DNA of 42,275 nucleotides, taken from Granulicella sp. (GTDB lineage Bacteria > Acidobacteriota > Terriglobia > Terriglobales > Acidobacteriaceae). Each line of letters opens with the position of its first letter. The stretch's first letter is position 1. The notes beneath the pieces were generated by a model. The model made no database searches, was not told the origin of the DNA, and saw only the letters and a list, made by a program, of their open reading frames with translations. Position numbers and translations under genes: made by a program. The DNA is taken from NCBI GenBank assembly GCA_003138795.1, contig PLHC01000146.1, positions 1-42,275 on the forward strand, read 5' to 3'. Positions 30,165 to 40,386 of this stretch are shown here, in pieces.

Positions 30165-31352
30165 CTAGGCCGCTCTTTCGGAGGGTTCCTGCTGCTGACG
30201 GCTTACCTCGCCGTTCACTTCACAGGCTAACCGGGCGTGTCCCGCCCTTAGAACGTTGATCGCGCCGACGAGGTCGGCGTTCTCTTGAAAGCCACATTCG
30301 ACGCAAGCAAATCCTGCTTGCGTCCAGCGGTTATTTCCTGAGACATGACCGCAATGTGGGCACGTCCGGGAAGTGTTCTGCGGCGGCACGGCGAGGAACA
30401 CGCCACCCGCCCAGAGCATTTTGTACTCCAGTTGCCGACGGAATTCCGCCCAGCCCTGGTCGAGGATCGACCGGTTGAGACCGGCTTTTGCGCGGACGTT
30501 CTGGCCAGGTTGTTCAACAGAACCAGCGGCAGACCGCGACATATTGCTTACCTGCAAGTCTTCGACGACGACCATCGCGTGGTTTTTGCTGATGGTGGTT
30601 GAAGTCTTGTGCAGGTAATCCCGGCGAGCGTTGGCGATGCGAACGTGGATGCGCTGGACCTTGGCTTTCGCCTTCTTCCAGTTGCTGCTGAACTTCTTCT
30701 TGCGGCTCATGGCCTGCTGCGCTTTGCGCAGATCGACAGCATACCGCTTGAAGATGTTGAGCGGCGGATAGACGGTTCCATCTGAGAGCGTTGCAAAGCG
30801 GACCACGCCCATGTCGATGCCAATAGCATCACCTTGGGCAACCGGCTGCTCTACCTCGCGTTCAGTCTGGATCGAGACGAACCATTTGCCACCGCGGAGG
30901 CTGACGGTGACGTTCCTGACGGCGCCGAGGACCTCCCGGCTGTTGCGGTAACGCAGCCAGCCCAGCTTGGGCAGGAATATCCGGCTGTTGGCCTGGTCCA
31001 GCTTGAAGCCCTGCGGGAAACGGAAGCTATCTCCGTAGCCGCGCTTCTTGAAGCGCGGGTAATCAGCCCGTTTCTCAAAGAAGTTGGTGAAGGCTCGATC
31101 CAGGTTCTTGAGCGCGTGTTGCAAGGCTTGCGAAGGAGATTCCTTGAGCCAAGCGAATTCGCTTTTCCAGGCTGGAAGCTGGTTTGCCATTTCCACGTAG
31201 CGGATGAACTTGTTTCCGGCTGCATGGTTGGCTTGTTGCAGCGCCAGCGCCTTGTTGAACACGAACCTGCACGATCCGGCAAAGCGGCGCATGTCGCGCT
31301 GCTGGTTGCCGTCTGGCATGATCTCGTATTTGAAGGCTTGAAGCCGTTCCAT
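30165..31352 (-). CDS. tnpB: TnpB, RNA-guided nuclease of IS605-group elements
   Basis: This 395-residue protein is an IS605-type TnpB, the ancestor group of Cas12 nucleases, which cuts DNA guided by an RNA from the element's right end. The RuvC residues are intact: Asp in GIDMGVVRFA, Glu in VVVEDLQ and Asp in ENADLVGAINVL. The zinc ribbon is CPHCGHVSGN followed by CVECG. The N-terminal helix-turn-helix-like start (MERLQAFKYEIMPDGNQQ) is normal. I chose the ATG at 31352, which follows GGGAG very closely; a TTG at 31361 is possible. No frameshift is seen, so it may be active. Confidence 0.94.
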   Translation of the reverse strand: MERLQAFKYEIMPDGNQQRDMRRFAGSCRFVFNKALALQQANHAAGNKFIRYVEMANQLPAWKSEFAWLKESPSQALQHALKNLDRAFTNFFEKRADYPRFKKRGYGDSFRFPQGFKLDQANSRIFLPKLGWLRYRNSREVLGAVRNVTVSLRGGKWFVSIQTEREVEQPVAQGDAIGIDMGVVRFATLSDGTVYPPLNIFKRYAVDLRKAQQAMSRKKKFSSNWKKAKAKVQRIHVRIANARRDYLHKTSTTISKNHAMVVVEDLQVSNMSRSAAGSVEQPGQNVRAKAGLNRSILDQGWAEFRRQLEYKMLWAGGVFLAVPPQNTSRTCPHCGHVSGNNRWTQAGFACVECGFQENADLVGAINVLRAGHARLACEVNGEVSRQQQEPSERAA

Positions 31353-31523
31353 CTCCCACAACTATACCCACCGCTGAAAGCGAAGACAAGGCGAAACACC
31401 CCGGCTCCGCCGGGACGCTCTCGACCCAGCCCTGAAGGATGGGGTTTTCCACGCTAAGGATAAACGAAGTCCGGACGGTCTACTATTTATTACCAACCTG
31501 CAGCGCAAAACCAGTCAACGCTC

Positions 31524-34173: not shown

Positions 34174-35271
34174 ATGGCGAAGCCCCTACGCAGCGAAGAT
34201 CCTAATCCGCCAAGTGTTCAATTTAGAGACTTCGGTGTTCTCGACGCGGGTAAACAAAGCAAAGGCGCGGCCATCGCCTCAATTGCGATCAACGTCGCCC
34301 TTTTGGCCCTGCTAGTCATCCTGGGTTACATCGTCAAGACCAATCCAACCGTTGCCAAAGAGGTTGCCATGCTGACGCTGCCTCCAGAGCCGCCTCCGCA
34401 GCCAAAGCCGGCGCCGAAGCCACCACCGCCGAAGCCGCCCAAGCCATTACCGCCAACGCCCACACGGCCACCGAAGGTTCACCTGCCGCGCATTGTGGAG
34501 CCGCCGCCTGACGTCAAGCCGTTGCCGATCCCGCAGCCCAAGCCCGTCAATCTGCAGCCGCCAGCTCCGCCCAAGCGCGAGAATCCCCGGCCCGCGCCGG
34601 TCAAGGTCAACCTCGGCGTGGCCAAGGCCGCTTCGGTCCCGAATAACGATGCGCATCCGTCCGCCGTGCGGCTCGGATCTCCGACGAATCCCCTCAAGCC
34701 TCTCACCGGGCCTGCAGTTTCAAGCGTCAACCTCGGTGTTGCTGGAATGCCCGGCATGAACCGTGGCAATACGGGCAATGGACCCCGTGCGACCTCAGTC
34801 AATATGGGCTCAGACTCCCCAAATTCCAACAATCTAAACGGTCATGACAATGGCGTGGGCCCCGTCAGGGGAGTGAAGCTGGGTAGCGGAACCGGCCCCA
34901 TAACCTCGAAAAATTACGCGGCCATAGCGCCTGTGCATCTGGGTACTCCACCGCCGCCACCCGCCGCCCGGCAGCCCGCCGCTTCCGCCCTGTCCGCCGC
35001 TACTCCGCCCAGGATCACCTTCAAGCCAGAGCCGGTGTACACCGAGGAAGCCAAGGAGCAGCATATTCAAGGCGATGCTGTTGTCAGAGTCGTCTTCCAC
35101 GCGAACGGGACCATGGAGGTCATCAGTCTAGTTCGCGGCCTTGGCCACGGTCTGGACGAGCCTGCACTTCAGGCCGCTCGTGGTGTTCGATTCCGTCCGG
35201 CCCTCGATGCTGGCGGCCATCCCGTCGACTTTCCAACCAATATCATTGTTCACTTCATCATTAATAACTAA
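34174..35271 (+). CDS. tonB: Energy transducer TonB
   Basis: This 365-residue protein links the inner-membrane proton motive force to outer-membrane receptors. A single membrane span lies at about residues 30-52, followed by a periplasmic Pro/Lys-rich spacer (about 70-145). The C-terminal TonB domain (about 275-365) has the expected YTEEAKEQHIQGDAVVRVVF and ends in FPTNIIVHFIINN. Between spacer and domain is an unusual section with six recurrences of V(N/R/K/H)(L/M)G. ExbB and ExbD are not adjacent. The receptor at 4624 could be a partner, but that is only inference. The LolA/M48-like gene follows in the same direction. Confidence 0.92.
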   Translation: MAKPLRSEDPNPPSVQFRDFGVLDAGKQSKGAAIASIAINVALLALLVILGYIVKTNPTVAKEVAMLTLPPEPPPQPKPAPKPPPPKPPKPLPPTPTRPPKVHLPRIVEPPPDVKPLPIPQPKPVNLQPPAPPKRENPRPAPVKVNLGVAKAASVPNNDAHPSAVRLGSPTNPLKPLTGPAVSSVNLGVAGMPGMNRGNTGNGPRATSVNMGSDSPNSNNLNGHDNGVGPVRGVKLGSGTGPITSKNYAAIAPVHLGTPPPPPAARQPAASALSAATPPRITFKPEPVYTEEAKEQHIQGDAVVRVVFHANGTMEVISLVRGLGHGLDEPALQAARGVRFRPALDAGGHPVDFPTNIIVHFIINN

Positions 35272-35440
35272 ACGTCCCGTCAGGCATTACTATTTGTTGG
35301 CAAGTTTCAAAAGCTTCACAATATTCTGAATCTGATCCAGTAGGAAAGCCCGCCAGGCAGAACCCATCGCTTTATTTCCTGAATCTTCGAAAGGGCTGCC
35401 CTCACCGGTAGCCGCACCAGCTAAGGAGCCCCTGAAGCCT

Positions 35441-37207
35441 ATGAACCTCCCGTCAAAACTCACCGCCGCCATGGCTTTCGCTCTTATGGTTGCATCGGCC
35501 CTGCCTGCTTTGGCCTTCCCGAAGAAACAACAGCTCGAATCGGCGTATGCACGCAAGCTCACGCCGGCCCAGAATGCCTTGATCGACAAAGCTATCGTTC
35601 GTGAGGCCGTGATCGTCAAGACACTCAGGGAGCGCAGCCCGATCGTCGAAACCTACATCCAGAACATGCGTCCCGATCCAGTCATGGGGCAAACCGTTGA
35701 TAGTGATGTCCACTTCCTGGCTCGCGTCGATTTTGGCAAGGTCATCGGTGAGAACAGCTTCGCCCGTGGCGGCCAACTCAGCACACAGGGCCGCTTCAAG
35801 CACTCCCTCAGCTACATCACCGATCTCTCTCTGCGCATGACTTACAACGAGGCAGGTTTTGTCCGCATGATCGTCGTCGACAGCGCCGGCTTCGACCGTC
35901 AACACTATAACTTCACCTTCCTGCGCAACGACTTCCTCGGCACCGTTCCCACCGTAGTCTTCGATGTTTCTCCAATCAAGAAGGCTCCGGGCCGCTTCTT
36001 TGGCCGCATCTGGGTTGAACGCAACGGTGGAAACATCGTCCGCTACGACGGCAACCTTGCCGGCGGCGAGAAAGACGACATCAACCGGTACTTCCACTTC
36101 AACTCCATTCGCACAAATGTTGAGGATGGTCTCTGGCTGCCCACTGCGTCTTACATCGAAGAGAGCGATCCAAAGAGTCCCTCACATAGCCTCAGATTCA
36201 AGGCGATTAACCAGATCTGGGGTTATTCTCTGAAGATTCCCGCAAAGGAATCCGATGAGGCAGAGCTGGAAGTCGAAGGTGCGACGGACGAGAGCCAGCA
36301 GAATGGCGTCCTCGGCCCACTTGGCGCACAGCGTCAATGGGTTCAGGAGGCCGAAGACAACGTCATCGAGCGCCTCTATACCGCAGGCCTTATCGATGCT
36401 CCCAGCGACTTCGACAAGGTCCTCGCGCAACTCGCCAACAACATCCTCGCCTACAACCAGATTCCAATCGACCGCCCCGTCCGCGTTCGTACACTTCTCA
36501 CGGAACCGCTCGAGTCTGTAGCGGTCGGCAACACAATTCTGATCTCCAAGGGCCTAGTCGACACCACCGCCGTGGTTACCGCAGACGGCGCGCAACAGAT
36601 GGGCAACCTCAACGCCTTACTTGCCTTTCAGGTGGCGCAAATCGTCCTCGGTCACCACATCGACACCAAGTACGCATTTAGCGATCGGCTGCTCTTTCCG
36701 CCCGAGTCCGCCTTCCAAAAACTGCCGCTGTTCCACACGGACGCCGACGACACCGAGGCTGCCAAGAAGGCCTTGGAATTACTCAGCGTGAAAGATCTTG
36801 CGGATGGCCAGCAGTACTTCGGTCTCTATCTCCAGCAGTTGCAGGCTCGCGAGAAGGGCCTGAAGGCTCTCACCAATCCGCAGTTCGGTGACAGCCTCAT
36901 CAAGCCGGATGGGACCTTCTGGATGCAGGCCCTCATCTCCAAGGCGCCCAAGCTCAACGACACCGATCTCAAGCAGCAGGCTGCCGAACCGCTCAACTCT
37001 TATCTCGTCAATGATCCTTGGACCGATCAGGTGATTAAGTTGAACGCTGCCCCGGAACCGCTTCTCAGCGCCCGGGACAAGCTCCCGTTCGAGATCACAC
37101 CCGTATCTGTGAATCTCTCCTATTGGAAGGCCCCCGTATCACCGGCGCCCGCACCGGCGGACACCGCAACTCCAGCGCCCGCACCGGCTTCACAGCCGCA
37201 ACGCTAA
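35441..37207 (+). CDS. Secreted LolA-like/M48-like fusion with degenerate protease motif
   Basis: This 588-residue protein has a signal peptide (residues 1-25, ending ALAF), a first domain of about 80-245 with a LolA-like beta pattern (GRFFGRIWVERNGGNIVRYDG, then DGLWLPTASYIEE), and a second domain of about 300-480 resembling M48 metalloproteases. In the second domain, VGNTILISKGLVD precedes the helix AFQVAQIVLGHH. The expected zinc motif HExxH reads FQVAQ (396-400), so both histidines and the glutamate are lost. The C-terminus is Pro/Ala-rich. It is probably a non-catalytic envelope factor. It follows tonB after 169 bases. Confidence 0.7.
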   Translation: MNLPSKLTAAMAFALMVASALPALAFPKKQQLESAYARKLTPAQNALIDKAIVREAVIVKTLRERSPIVETYIQNMRPDPVMGQTVDSDVHFLARVDFGKVIGENSFARGGQLSTQGRFKHSLSYITDLSLRMTYNEAGFVRMIVVDSAGFDRQHYNFTFLRNDFLGTVPTVVFDVSPIKKAPGRFFGRIWVERNGGNIVRYDGNLAGGEKDDINRYFHFNSIRTNVEDGLWLPTASYIEESDPKSPSHSLRFKAINQIWGYSLKIPAKESDEAELEVEGATDESQQNGVLGPLGAQRQWVQEAEDNVIERLYTAGLIDAPSDFDKVLAQLANNILAYNQIPIDRPVRVRTLLTEPLESVAVGNTILISKGLVDTTAVVTADGAQQMGNLNALLAFQVAQIVLGHHIDTKYAFSDRLLFPPESAFQKLPLFHTDADDTEAAKKALELLSVKDLADGQQYFGLYLQQLQAREKGLKALTNPQFGDSLIKPDGTFWMQALISKAPKLNDTDLKQQAAEPLNSYLVNDPWTDQVIKLNAAPEPLLSARDKLPFEITPVSVNLSYWKAPVSPAPAPADTATPAPAPASQPQR

Positions 37208-37536: not shown

Positions 37537-38112
37537 ATGTTGACTGTGTGCTCCTCCTTTGCTCTGGGACAAGCTATTCCTGGCGCGACTCGAAATACTG
37601 ACCTGCAGGTTGGTGGAACGTTTACATTCGCCTACCCCGACTACACCCCACAGCAGGCTCTGGGCTTCGGCGTGTATGCCGACTTGGACATCAAGAGTCA
37701 CTGGGGGGCAGAGCTCGACTTTCACCAGATCTACATCGATCAGAACTCGCCGGCCAAGGAGTGGACCTTCGAGTACGGTGTCCGCTACCATCGGACCTAT
37801 GGTCGCTATAACCCTTACGCGAAAGCGCTTGCTGGTCGCGGCACCTTTGATTTTGCACCGTATTGGTGGCAAAAAGGCGCATCACCGGGCTATAACTTGC
37901 TCACTGCGGGCGCCGGCGTCGACACCGAACTTATGCCGCGCTTAAATCTTCGGGTTGGAATGGAGTACCAGGGCTGGTTTACCGGTGGCGCCCGCGGGCC
38001 TTCAGGTGTCGGTGGCCCGGGACAAAATTTATACCTCCCGAATGGGCTGACCCCTATTCTCTATGAGGTTGGCTTCGCATACCACTTCACTGGCGGCTCT
38101 CCAGTCCATTAA
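37537..38112 (+). CDS. Outer-membrane beta-barrel protein, leader apparently interrupted
   Basis: From ATG 37537 this is a 191-residue protein resembling small OmpA/OmpW-type barrels, with alternating aromatic strands (FGVYADLDIK, WTFEYGVRYHRTYGRYNPY) and a near-terminal GFAYHF. The barrel at 39067 shares the pattern YxRYNP and the YHF end but is only distantly similar. Residues before the mature part form just half of a signal peptide; the full leader would start at TTG 37510 but is broken by TGA. It may be a fresh pseudogene, a sequencing error, or translated from 37537 with a short leader. The function is unknown. Confidence 0.65.
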   Translation: MLTVCSSFALGQAIPGATRNTDLQVGGTFTFAYPDYTPQQALGFGVYADLDIKSHWGAELDFHQIYIDQNSPAKEWTFEYGVRYHRTYGRYNPYAKALAGRGTFDFAPYWWQKGASPGYNLLTAGAGVDTELMPRLNLRVGMEYQGWFTGGARGPSGVGGPGQNLYLPNGLTPILYEVGFAYHFTGGSPVH

Positions 38113-39066: not shown

Positions 39067-39675
39067 CTAGAAGTGGTACGCAACGCCCAGCGACGGTGTC
39101 ATCAGTACGTAGTACCGATTCGTGGTCCATATCCCACCGGGTACACCGAAATCAGGGGCCTTCATCAGGAAGCCGCGATATTCAACTCGAAGATCGAAGC
39201 TGGGATTGATCTCATACGCCACGCCGCCGCCAAAGAGACCGCCGATCTCCATCTGCTGCTTCGTCTCTAACTGGGTCGTCCCATTATTCAGGATTGGCGT
39301 AAACATCTCGACGCCGATCCCGGCCTCGAGAAACGGGTTATATCTCTTATAGGTCCGCGAGTACACGTAGGCGCCGCTGATCTCCTGTTGGCGGACATCC
39401 ACCCTGCCATTGGGTTGCGAGATGCTGTCGTACTTCATGGAATCCTGCGCAAATGTGTAGTTCAATTCCACTGCGCTGCGTGGGGTCAGCATATAACGGT
39501 AGCTCGCCAGAAAGCCGCCGGTGGTCGTTGTCGTCATCGGATGAACCGAGGTCCCATAGACAGCCGGTGCGTAGACCCCAATCAAGCTAACGCTGGCATC
39601 CTGCCGGCTTTCCTGTGCGTGTCCCACGGCGGCGGTACACACGATCAGTGCACCGAGCAACATCATTTTCTTCAT
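39067..39675 (-). CDS. Outer-membrane beta-barrel protein
   Basis: This 202-residue protein starts with a clean signal peptide (MKKMMLLGALIVCTAAVGHAQ) and continues as a small eight-strand-type beta-barrel of the OmpA/OmpW-like class. Strands such as GGFLASYRYML, AVELNYTFAQDS and FDLRVEYRGFLM alternate polar and hydrophobic residues, and the protein ends in GVAYHF with a terminal aromatic residue, as expected for BAM recognition. No ligand or enzyme motif is seen. It is distantly related to the barrel protein at 37537. It is convergent with the PAS gene. Confidence 0.85.
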   Translation of the reverse strand: MKKMMLLGALIVCTAAVGHAQESRQDASVSLIGVYAPAVYGTSVHPMTTTTTGGFLASYRYMLTPRSAVELNYTFAQDSMKYDSISQPNGRVDVRQQEISGAYVYSRTYKRYNPFLEAGIGVEMFTPILNNGTTQLETKQQMEIGGLFGGGVAYEINPSFDLRVEYRGFLMKAPDFGVPGGIWTTNRYYVLMTPSLGVAYHF

Positions 39676-39912: not shown

Positions 39913-40386
39913 CTACTGCTGCGGAACCGGCGGTGGCGGCGGCGGTACCGCACCACCCTGACCACCACGACGACGCTCGCGTTGCCTGGCCTGCATCTCG
40001 TCGTACTTCAGCTTCTGGTCGGGGGTCAACACGCCACGGACCTTCGCCTCCTGGTCCTGGTGCAACGCCTCAGCCTGCGCGTGACGGTCCTGCGGAGAAA
40101 GCGACTCATTTGCGCGCAGCGCCTCCATCTTCGCGCGGCTATCGGCGAAGATCACCCGGATCTGAGCGGTCTGATCCGCAGTCAGATCCAGCCGTTGCTG
40201 CAGCATCTCCACGCGACGCTCCGGATCCCATCCCTGATGACCACCCGGCGGCGGTCCCTGCTGTTGTCCATCGGGAGGCGGCGGTGGTACATCCTGCTGA
40301 GCCGCAGCAGCACTCACAACCAGGCCAGCACCACACAGCAATACCGCCGCTGCACGAAACATCTTCATCTTCACGATGCTCTTCAT
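39913..40386 (-). CDS. Spy/CpxP-like periplasmic protein
   Basis: This 157-residue protein has a signal peptide (to about residue 29, ending AAAAQ), a Pro/Gln/Gly-rich stretch, and a helical core with the paired LTxxQ motifs of the Spy/CpxP superfamily: LDLTADQTAQI and VLTPDQKLKYDEM. The core is amphipathic and charged, as in these chaperones or stress sensors. The end is again Gly/Pro-rich (PPPPPPVPQQ). In E. coli such proteins respond to envelope stress, but no Cpx or Bae regulator is nearby. An internal ATG at 40368 is a possible alternative start. Confidence 0.82.
   Translation of the reverse strand: MKSIVKMKMFRAAAVLLCGAGLVVSAAAAQQDVPPPPPDGQQQGPPPGGHQGWDPERRVEMLQQRLDLTADQTAQIRVIFADSRAKMEALRANESLSPQDRHAQAEALHQDQEAKVRGVLTPDQKLKYDEMQARQRERRRGGQGGAVPPPPPPVPQQ

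Follow-up and report, generated by a model that had tools for sequence, protein, structure and literature searches.

The stretch of DNA analysed here, called the window, comprises 42,275 nucleotides of contig PLHC01000146.1 of Granulicella sp., a soil acidobacterium, and contains, at 35441..37207 of the plus strand, an open reading frame for a protein of 588 amino acids in which a LolA-like domain precedes a pseudo-M48 one. A possible ribosome-binding site read from the sequence (AAGGAG, 35423..35428, plus strand) lies 12 bases before the ATG. Residues 1-25 (35441..35515) look by eye like a signal peptide with an AxA-type cleavage site near residue 25 (ALPALA before F) and without a lipobox, and the AlphaFold2 model places a helix at residues 3-20, within this region; a lipobox-like motif was found in none of the 53 proteins of loci L001-L053, the window protein included, whose starts were chosen by script. 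The predicted model and fold comparison assign residues 37-270 (35549..36250) to a LolA/LolB-like domain and residues 296-539 (36326..37057) to an M48-like domain, while past residue 540 or so nothing follows but a short helix and a Pro/Ala-rich tail of low confidence (residues 560-588, 37118..37204, from sequence and model), and no TPR domain was detected with Pfam. The nearest named relatives belong to Granulicella, the protein of Granulicella sp. L46 being 84% identical over the best segment, and homologues are present in 35 of 41 near genomes; class-wide, matches were obtained in 279 of 299 genomes, a count that also takes in short LolA-only matches.

Directly upstream, on the same strand and separated by 169 bases, lies a tonB gene (34174..35271), the neighbour that the preliminary description had named. 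It encodes 365 amino acids, of which residues 285-362 match TonB_C (PF03544) with 49.5 bits against a cut-off of 24.6, and by eye it shows a membrane helix at about residues 31-54 and a Pro-rich stretch. The intergenic gap holds a weak promoter-like match, four such matches occurring in the scanned stretch against 1.8 expected. Downstream, at 37537..38112 on the plus strand, is a gene for a small outer-membrane beta-barrel protein that matches OMP_b-brl below the cut-off. Also near the pair are a second small beta-barrel gene (39067-39675, minus strand) and a gene for an LTXXQ-family protein (39913-40386, minus strand), another possible envelope-stress protein, which we take to be Spy/CpxP-like. 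Elsewhere in the window, a gene at 30165-31361 (minus strand) encodes a TnpB-type transposase with OrfB_IS605, a Cas12f1-like TNB domain and an N-terminal HTH. The defence-gene library scan rendered nothing, a search of the viral fold library was without a hit at E 0.001, and Rfam, run on the window, gave nothing at the gathering score.

The window protein matches no Pfam family at E 1, including M48 (PF01435) and PF17131; the NCBIfam scan gave only noise (E 0.3) and the PDB sequence search one unrelated hit (E 1.4). Its full length is not spanned by any Pfam or NCBIfam model. Its assignment to M48 is therefore made through its intact relatives and its fold, and not through a match of its own sequence. 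In the AlphaFold2 model of the full protein, built on 77 aligned sequences (mean pLDDT 81, pTM 0.80), residues 298-538 superpose on Escherichia coli BepA (6ait_E) with Z 13.0 and an rmsd of 3.8 over 189 residues, followed by the M48 peptidase 3c37 (Z 11.7) and a second BepA structure, 6sar (Z 10.7), so that the strand, turn and helix layout of an M48 peptidase described before is borne out. The relatives that keep HExxH provide the sequence link: a Peptidase_M48 match of E 1 or better was found in all 12 members of alignment A2, in which HExxH is invariant (best E 7.5e-10; 34.2 bits for the first member, cut-off 20.3), and the NCBIfam LoiP model matches 11 of the 12 (best E 1.2e-5). In the set of dead sequences (A3) only three of 13 match Peptidase_M48, the best at 1.4e-4. 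In PDB profile searches, A2 found 3c37 as its sole M48 chain (E 0.57) and a mixed alignment found no M48. Against the BepA-like M48 protein of the same genome, the intact profile A2 reaches a probability of 84.8 (E 6.5e-6) and the dead-group profile A4 a weak 3.7 (E 0.012, 54 columns). The window protein is 34-38% identical to the intact members in alignment A1, and they form one alignable family.

Residues 37-270 of the full model match structures of the LolA superfamily (3bk5, Z 8.7; 3buu, Z 8.4), and the N-terminal half folded alone (residues 34-288, pLDDT 73) matches 3bk5 with Z 9.6, 4z48 (DUF1329) with 9.4, LolB 8cm1 with 9.3, LolA3 9tp6 with 8.9 and 3buu with 8.8. The entries of E. coli LolA score lower (Z 5.5-6.2; 1ua8 5.8, 6f3z 6.2), and MucB/RseB reach 5.0-6.2. 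The LolA-like domain proposed earlier thus holds at the level of fold. This fold, a curved sheet with a helix, is common to the superfamily members 3bk5, 8cm1, 3buu and 9tp6, but those are stand-alone proteins, and a sequence match to PF17131 appears, weakly, only in relatives of the window protein (five of the 26 members of A1, best E 0.027). Stand-alone relatives of the N-domain also exist in Acidobacteriota: six frames of 278-335 amino acids (L271-L276) match the N-part of the family profile with E 2.8e-16 to 1.7e-23, and the four of them that were scanned match PF17131 (LolA_like) below the cut-off, at 2.9e-5 to 2.8e-4. Taken together, model and sequences make it firm that the gene product is a homologue of M48 metalloproteases without the zinc site, fused behind a LolA/LolB-like domain.

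The former zinc site can be read with the help of the aligned relatives. The segment VGNTILISKGLVD, which had been singled out as part of the M48 layout, corresponds to residues 362-374, and the helix noted after it to residues 384-402 (36590..36646 in the model), which terminates in FQVAQIV, followed by LGHH. Since aligned relatives carrying HELAH, HELGH or HEMGH fix the register, with H, E and H invariant in the 12 members of A2, F396, Q397 and Q400 (FQVAQ, residues 396-400, 36626..36640) are seen to occupy, in this order, the places of H, E and H of HExxH, as first noticed. The position of the third ligand, Glu of an ExxAD motif in the 60 fully intact relatives, is D437 (36749..36751). In the 80 named loci with the best matches, position 396 is never His. 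The exact motif of the window protein is atypical even of the dead group, in which the second His is usually kept (FQxAH, H400, in 113 of 124). An insertion of about eight residues in the loop preceding the former zinc helix (around 378-385, VVTADGAQ; 36572-36595) was observed in dead-type members of genera g1, g12 and g16; it is missing from dead-type L041-L043 (g15, g10) and from the intact members shown in the alignment.

A survey of Acidobacteriota genomes rendered, after merging of identical cores, 216 distinct family members including the window protein, with L134 and L135 (other M48s), L204 and L265-L276 outside the family counts. The site is intact (H/E/H/E) in 60 of them, of the dead type (F, M, Y, L or V at 396 together with N or D at 437) in 128, otherwise broken (for example HGLAA, RELAH, QELAE or HQLGS) in 25, and has HExxH with an altered third-ligand position in three; these proportions are not population frequencies, since most members were chosen because they matched the window or a mixed profile best. 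One sequence with a dead-type-like site (L200, from family f78) is placed outside the main clade, and the remaining 127 form one side of a branch with 100% support in a 216-row FastTree tree from which the zinc-site columns were removed, as do the 44 sampled dead-type sequences in a 105-row IQ-TREE tree, all trees being quick searches with SH-type support only and with several long-branched rows or rows of odd composition. The 127 come from named Acidobacteriaceae (59), from the family f1 of the window (50) and from genomes without a family name (17), and one is labelled Rhodanobacteraceae. The latter, L088, is 59% identical and lies inside the acidobacterial clade, so that its label is probably a binning or labelling error. 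The intact label requires at least 13 state changes in a 107-row tree, at least eight of them forced by well-supported branches, and at the fewest 10, of which seven are forced, in the 105-row tree; being too short, L264 does not figure in the former tree, nor L044 among the representatives. The trees are unrooted, and loss rather than gain is assumed because the rebuilding of HExxH is implausible. In 84 genomes of f1, the fetched copies are only of the dead type in 75, only of other types in nine and of both in none, which is what one would expect of a dead form that arose by alteration of the same locus where it stands. In two genomes of family f2 (L250-L254 in G031; L023, L255 and L256 in G029), several copies with differing broken sites (such as HGxxA, RGxxA and RGxxD) were observed, six of the eight with their own upstream tonB.

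According to the sequences surveyed, loss of the zinc site is thus fixed in one whole clade and recurs elsewhere, and is not local. The preliminary description had asked whether orthologues also lack HExxH, which those of the 127-member clade do, and had taken orthologues with an intact motif as a sign of a local mutation: such relatives do exist, but the loss is clade-wide and recurrent, and a mutation peculiar to this genome was dismissed. For the same reason there is virtually no chance that we are dealing with a decaying pseudogene, an assembly error or a local mutation, a reading to which only the FQVAQ of the window itself would lend some weight; it is refuted by the counts, the same type being found in 128 of the 216 members with the window included, the matches of the first 53 loci all being free of internal stops, and dN/dS lying well below 1.

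Selection was estimated as dN/dS (Nei-Gojobori) in 12 pairs of dead-type sequences, the values being rough because synonymous differences are high in most pairs. The M48 domain gave 0.012-0.072 in 11 of the 12 pairs, with one saturated, the LolA-like domain 0.009-0.145, and the former zinc helix (residues 384-410) 0-0.093 in 10 pairs, with two saturated; the C-terminal tail was mostly looser. Five other pairs gave 0.052-0.245 for the M48 domain. On these comparisons the dead M48 domain is under purifying selection. The dead group has, in addition, fixed residues of its own: H432 (36734..36736) occurs in 127 of 128 dead-type versus 10 of 52 intact sequences, D484 in 127 of 128 versus nine of 52, W494 in 127 of 128 versus none of 52, and K370 in 126 of 128 versus one of 52. 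Such residues together with the low dN/dS make the domain look remodelled rather than decaying. They also bear on the idea that the protein is a carrier of lipoproteins or lipids, with the LolA-like domain as its working part and the M48 half as a structural prop. The LolA/LolB fold and the weak PF17131 matches of the stand-alone N-domain relatives would suit a carrier; since the M48 half is constrained about as much as the LolA half, even along the former zinc helix, and since its group-specific H432, D484 and W494 exceed what a prop needs, we hold this to be quite unlikely.

It can also be the case that the site has been converted rather than lost, with H400, H405 and H432 forming, together with N or D at 437 and D484, a candidate metal or ligand site that serves another activity. 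H405 and H432 are invariant in alignment A4, and to these are added the frequent H400 and the near fixation of H432 and D484, but H400 is absent in 11 of 124 dead-type members overall, the window protein with its Gln among them, and His at 405 is common among intact relatives as well, so that a new activity appears distinctly improbable. Some metal binding is nonetheless possible in dead-type members, as H400 is usually kept and H432 nearly invariant. Position 481 (36881..36883), a candidate for the fourth ligand or for the active-site plug, is Gln in the window protein; in raw counts it is His in 45 of 53 HExxH members versus six of 126 others. An independent-pairs test of 481 against HExxH was not significant, with only five pairs, on starred branches, and the same held for 437, so that coevolution of either position with HExxH is unsupported once phylogeny is counted, despite the strong raw counts; the profile alignment puts the His at 481 several residues off the His of the M48 plug (HPx4R).

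Pairing with tonB extends over most of the family. Searching by tblastn and the TonB_C HMM, and taking as testable those members whose upstream DNA extends over 500 bases or more, we found that 197 of 209 directly follow a TonB_C open reading frame of the same strand, which answers in the affirmative the question, raised with the first description, of whether orthologues remain next to tonB. By type, the gene precedes 125 of 125 dead members, 49 of 56 intact ones, 20 of 25 otherwise broken ones and all three with a changed third ligand; measured from the stop of tonB, the first residue of the profile lies at a median distance of 105 bases (198 members). As a control, one in 478 other mechanical open reading frames of at least 300 amino acids from L054-L133, shadow frames included, has a TonB_C neighbour under a 600- or 900-base rule; the Granulicella genome itself contains six TonB_C matches in total. 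Where at least two copies were retrieved, tonB stands before every copy in nine of 17 genomes, and in G031 before four of five copies. Twelve testable members, seven of them intact, are without it; for L171, the first copy of L195, L219, L221, L254, L255 and L262 another copy in the genome has tonB, the remaining ones being L224, L240, L245, L259 and L264. No fusion of TonB with the protease was found among the open reading frames of the family loci scanned for one, and a 1023-residue frame of L245 considered as one is merely an open frame that runs upstream, without a TonB match. Since pairing is seen whether the zinc site is present or not, what the family is bound to is TonB and not catalysis, and by gene order the usual partner of the family is the tonB gene directly upstream. 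The downstream barrel behaves differently, a homologue being present at 110 of 125 dead-type loci but at one of 57 intact and none of 26 other loci, although distant barrels may be missed because the search began from the barrel of the window.

The frequent pairing could also fit a regulatory sensor of the RseB/MucB type, in which lipid or an unfolded protein of the outer membrane would be sensed by the LolA-like domain, and the dead M48 half would offer a surface for docking that gates the TonB next to it. RseB and MucB resemble the window protein in that their LolA-like domain is part of a larger periplasmic protein, and the N-domain matches them about as well as it does E. coli LolA. They are not known to have an M48 half, their genomic setting differs, and other LolA/LolB-superfamily structures (3bk5, 8cm1 and 3buu) are better matches; no anti-sigma or sigma-factor family appears among the neighbours in the window scanned with Pfam, and members with an intact zinc site occupy the same position. 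We therefore consider a sensor unlikely, if worth keeping in mind.

The same genome encodes, on other contigs, two further M48 proteins with HExxH that score above the Pfam cut-off. One is BepA-like (HEIAH, EAEAD, DHPATPERI) and the other, by reading of its sequence, Ste24/HtpX-like, so that M48 proteolysis is presumably supplied elsewhere in the cell. Their presence would allow the window protein to act as a decoy or inhibitor, binding the substrates of the active M48 proteases or dimerising with them. No genetic link is seen, however, because the active genes lie on other contigs, whereas the link to tonB is strong, and among the copies read in the 84 f1 genomes no dead type stands beside an intact family copy; a decoy is accordingly very improbable.

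We class the window protein as an M48 homologue that is not a peptidase and that carries a LolA-like domain; it is neither a member of the active family M48 nor a BepA. It has in common with E. coli BepA (6ait, 6sar) the M48 fold, a presumed export to the periplasm and an edge strand beside the active-site helix, but BepA has an intact HExxH/Glu/His site and a TPR domain and no LolA-like domain, whereas here the site is dead, the N-domain is LolA-like and no TPR was detected. The TPR domain of BepA is its docking part for the BAM machinery. The zinc ligands of BepA are given as H136, H140, E201 and H246 in the excerpted text of PMC7950410. By sequence the closest M48s, reached through the intact relatives, are 3c37 (Q74D82) and the NCBIfam LoiP model, neither of which the window protein itself matches. 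Both 3c37 and the LoiP-type peptidases are presumably without a LolA-like domain.

With not quite an even chance of being right, the function that we tentatively propose is that of a TonB-paired periplasmic factor that binds and holds clients during outer-membrane assembly, probably beta-barrel proteins belonging to the TonB system, and that can do without proteolysis; location, binding, client and TonB coupling are suggested by the fold model, the export signal and the neighbourhood. The protein would be exported to the periplasm, where the LolA-like domain may bind an acylated or hydrophobic segment, and the edge strand that flanks what was once the active site (residues 358-362, 36512..36526, by DSSP on the model) may capture an exposed strand of the client, as the edge strand of BepA does with LptD. 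The intact profile aligns this strand to NAMAL of the BepA-like M48 of the same genome, a stretch that we equate, by its residues, with N105-A106-F107 of BepA. The ancestral form would have been capable of cutting as well as holding; after loss of the zinc site, a client would be held and passed on rather than cut, and TonB may position or energise the factor. On this view, cutting disappeared on several occasions, and selection continued to maintain the fold, the groove helix and the pairing with TonB. In excerpts of PMC8423444, LptD is captured by the BepA strand that adjoins the active site, a strand used for degradation as well as for a chaperone-like function, and the protease-dead E137Q variant is only partly active as a chaperone; in those of PMC7950410, E137Q fails to complement a bepA mutant and is even harmful. 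A dead site does not, then, automatically mean a chaperone. It is conceivable, but improbable, that the holding factor forms a whole TonB-coupled module of outer-membrane assembly, in which the LolA-like/pseudo-M48 protein would hold nascent beta-barrels or TonB-dependent receptors, a dedicated TonB would give force or position, and catalysis would be an ancestral option often discarded in Acidobacteriota; if this were true, inner-membrane energy would feed the assembly or quality control of outer-membrane proteins.

The M48 fold, the LolA fold and TonB are each already known. For the combination of LolA and M48, the stable pairing with TonB and the repeated loss of the zinc site no description was found among the matches listed in open-licence PMC full text (subscription papers lie outside it), and no precedent for an M48 pseudoenzyme among those listed from the open full-text literature. 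Metallopeptidase pseudoenzymes in general likewise have lost catalysis and retained the fold (PMC11266112), and the terms M48, Oma1 and Ste24 are absent from the excerpted part of that review.

The family amounts to a natural series. Usually found in one genomic position and with one partner, it has repeatedly lost its active site while under strong selection, and it offers a direct test of whether envelope M48 proteins matter for binding or for cutting. For BepA this question is already an open one, a single strand serving both its chaperone-like and its proteolytic role (excerpts of PMC8423444). To our knowledge, the envelope of Acidobacteriota has been little studied. That the pairing with TonB is mostly kept whether or not the cutting site survives points, at the level of gene order and sequence, to a role that needs binding rather than cutting, and if the link to TonB is functional, the family would be a new partner for the TonB system.
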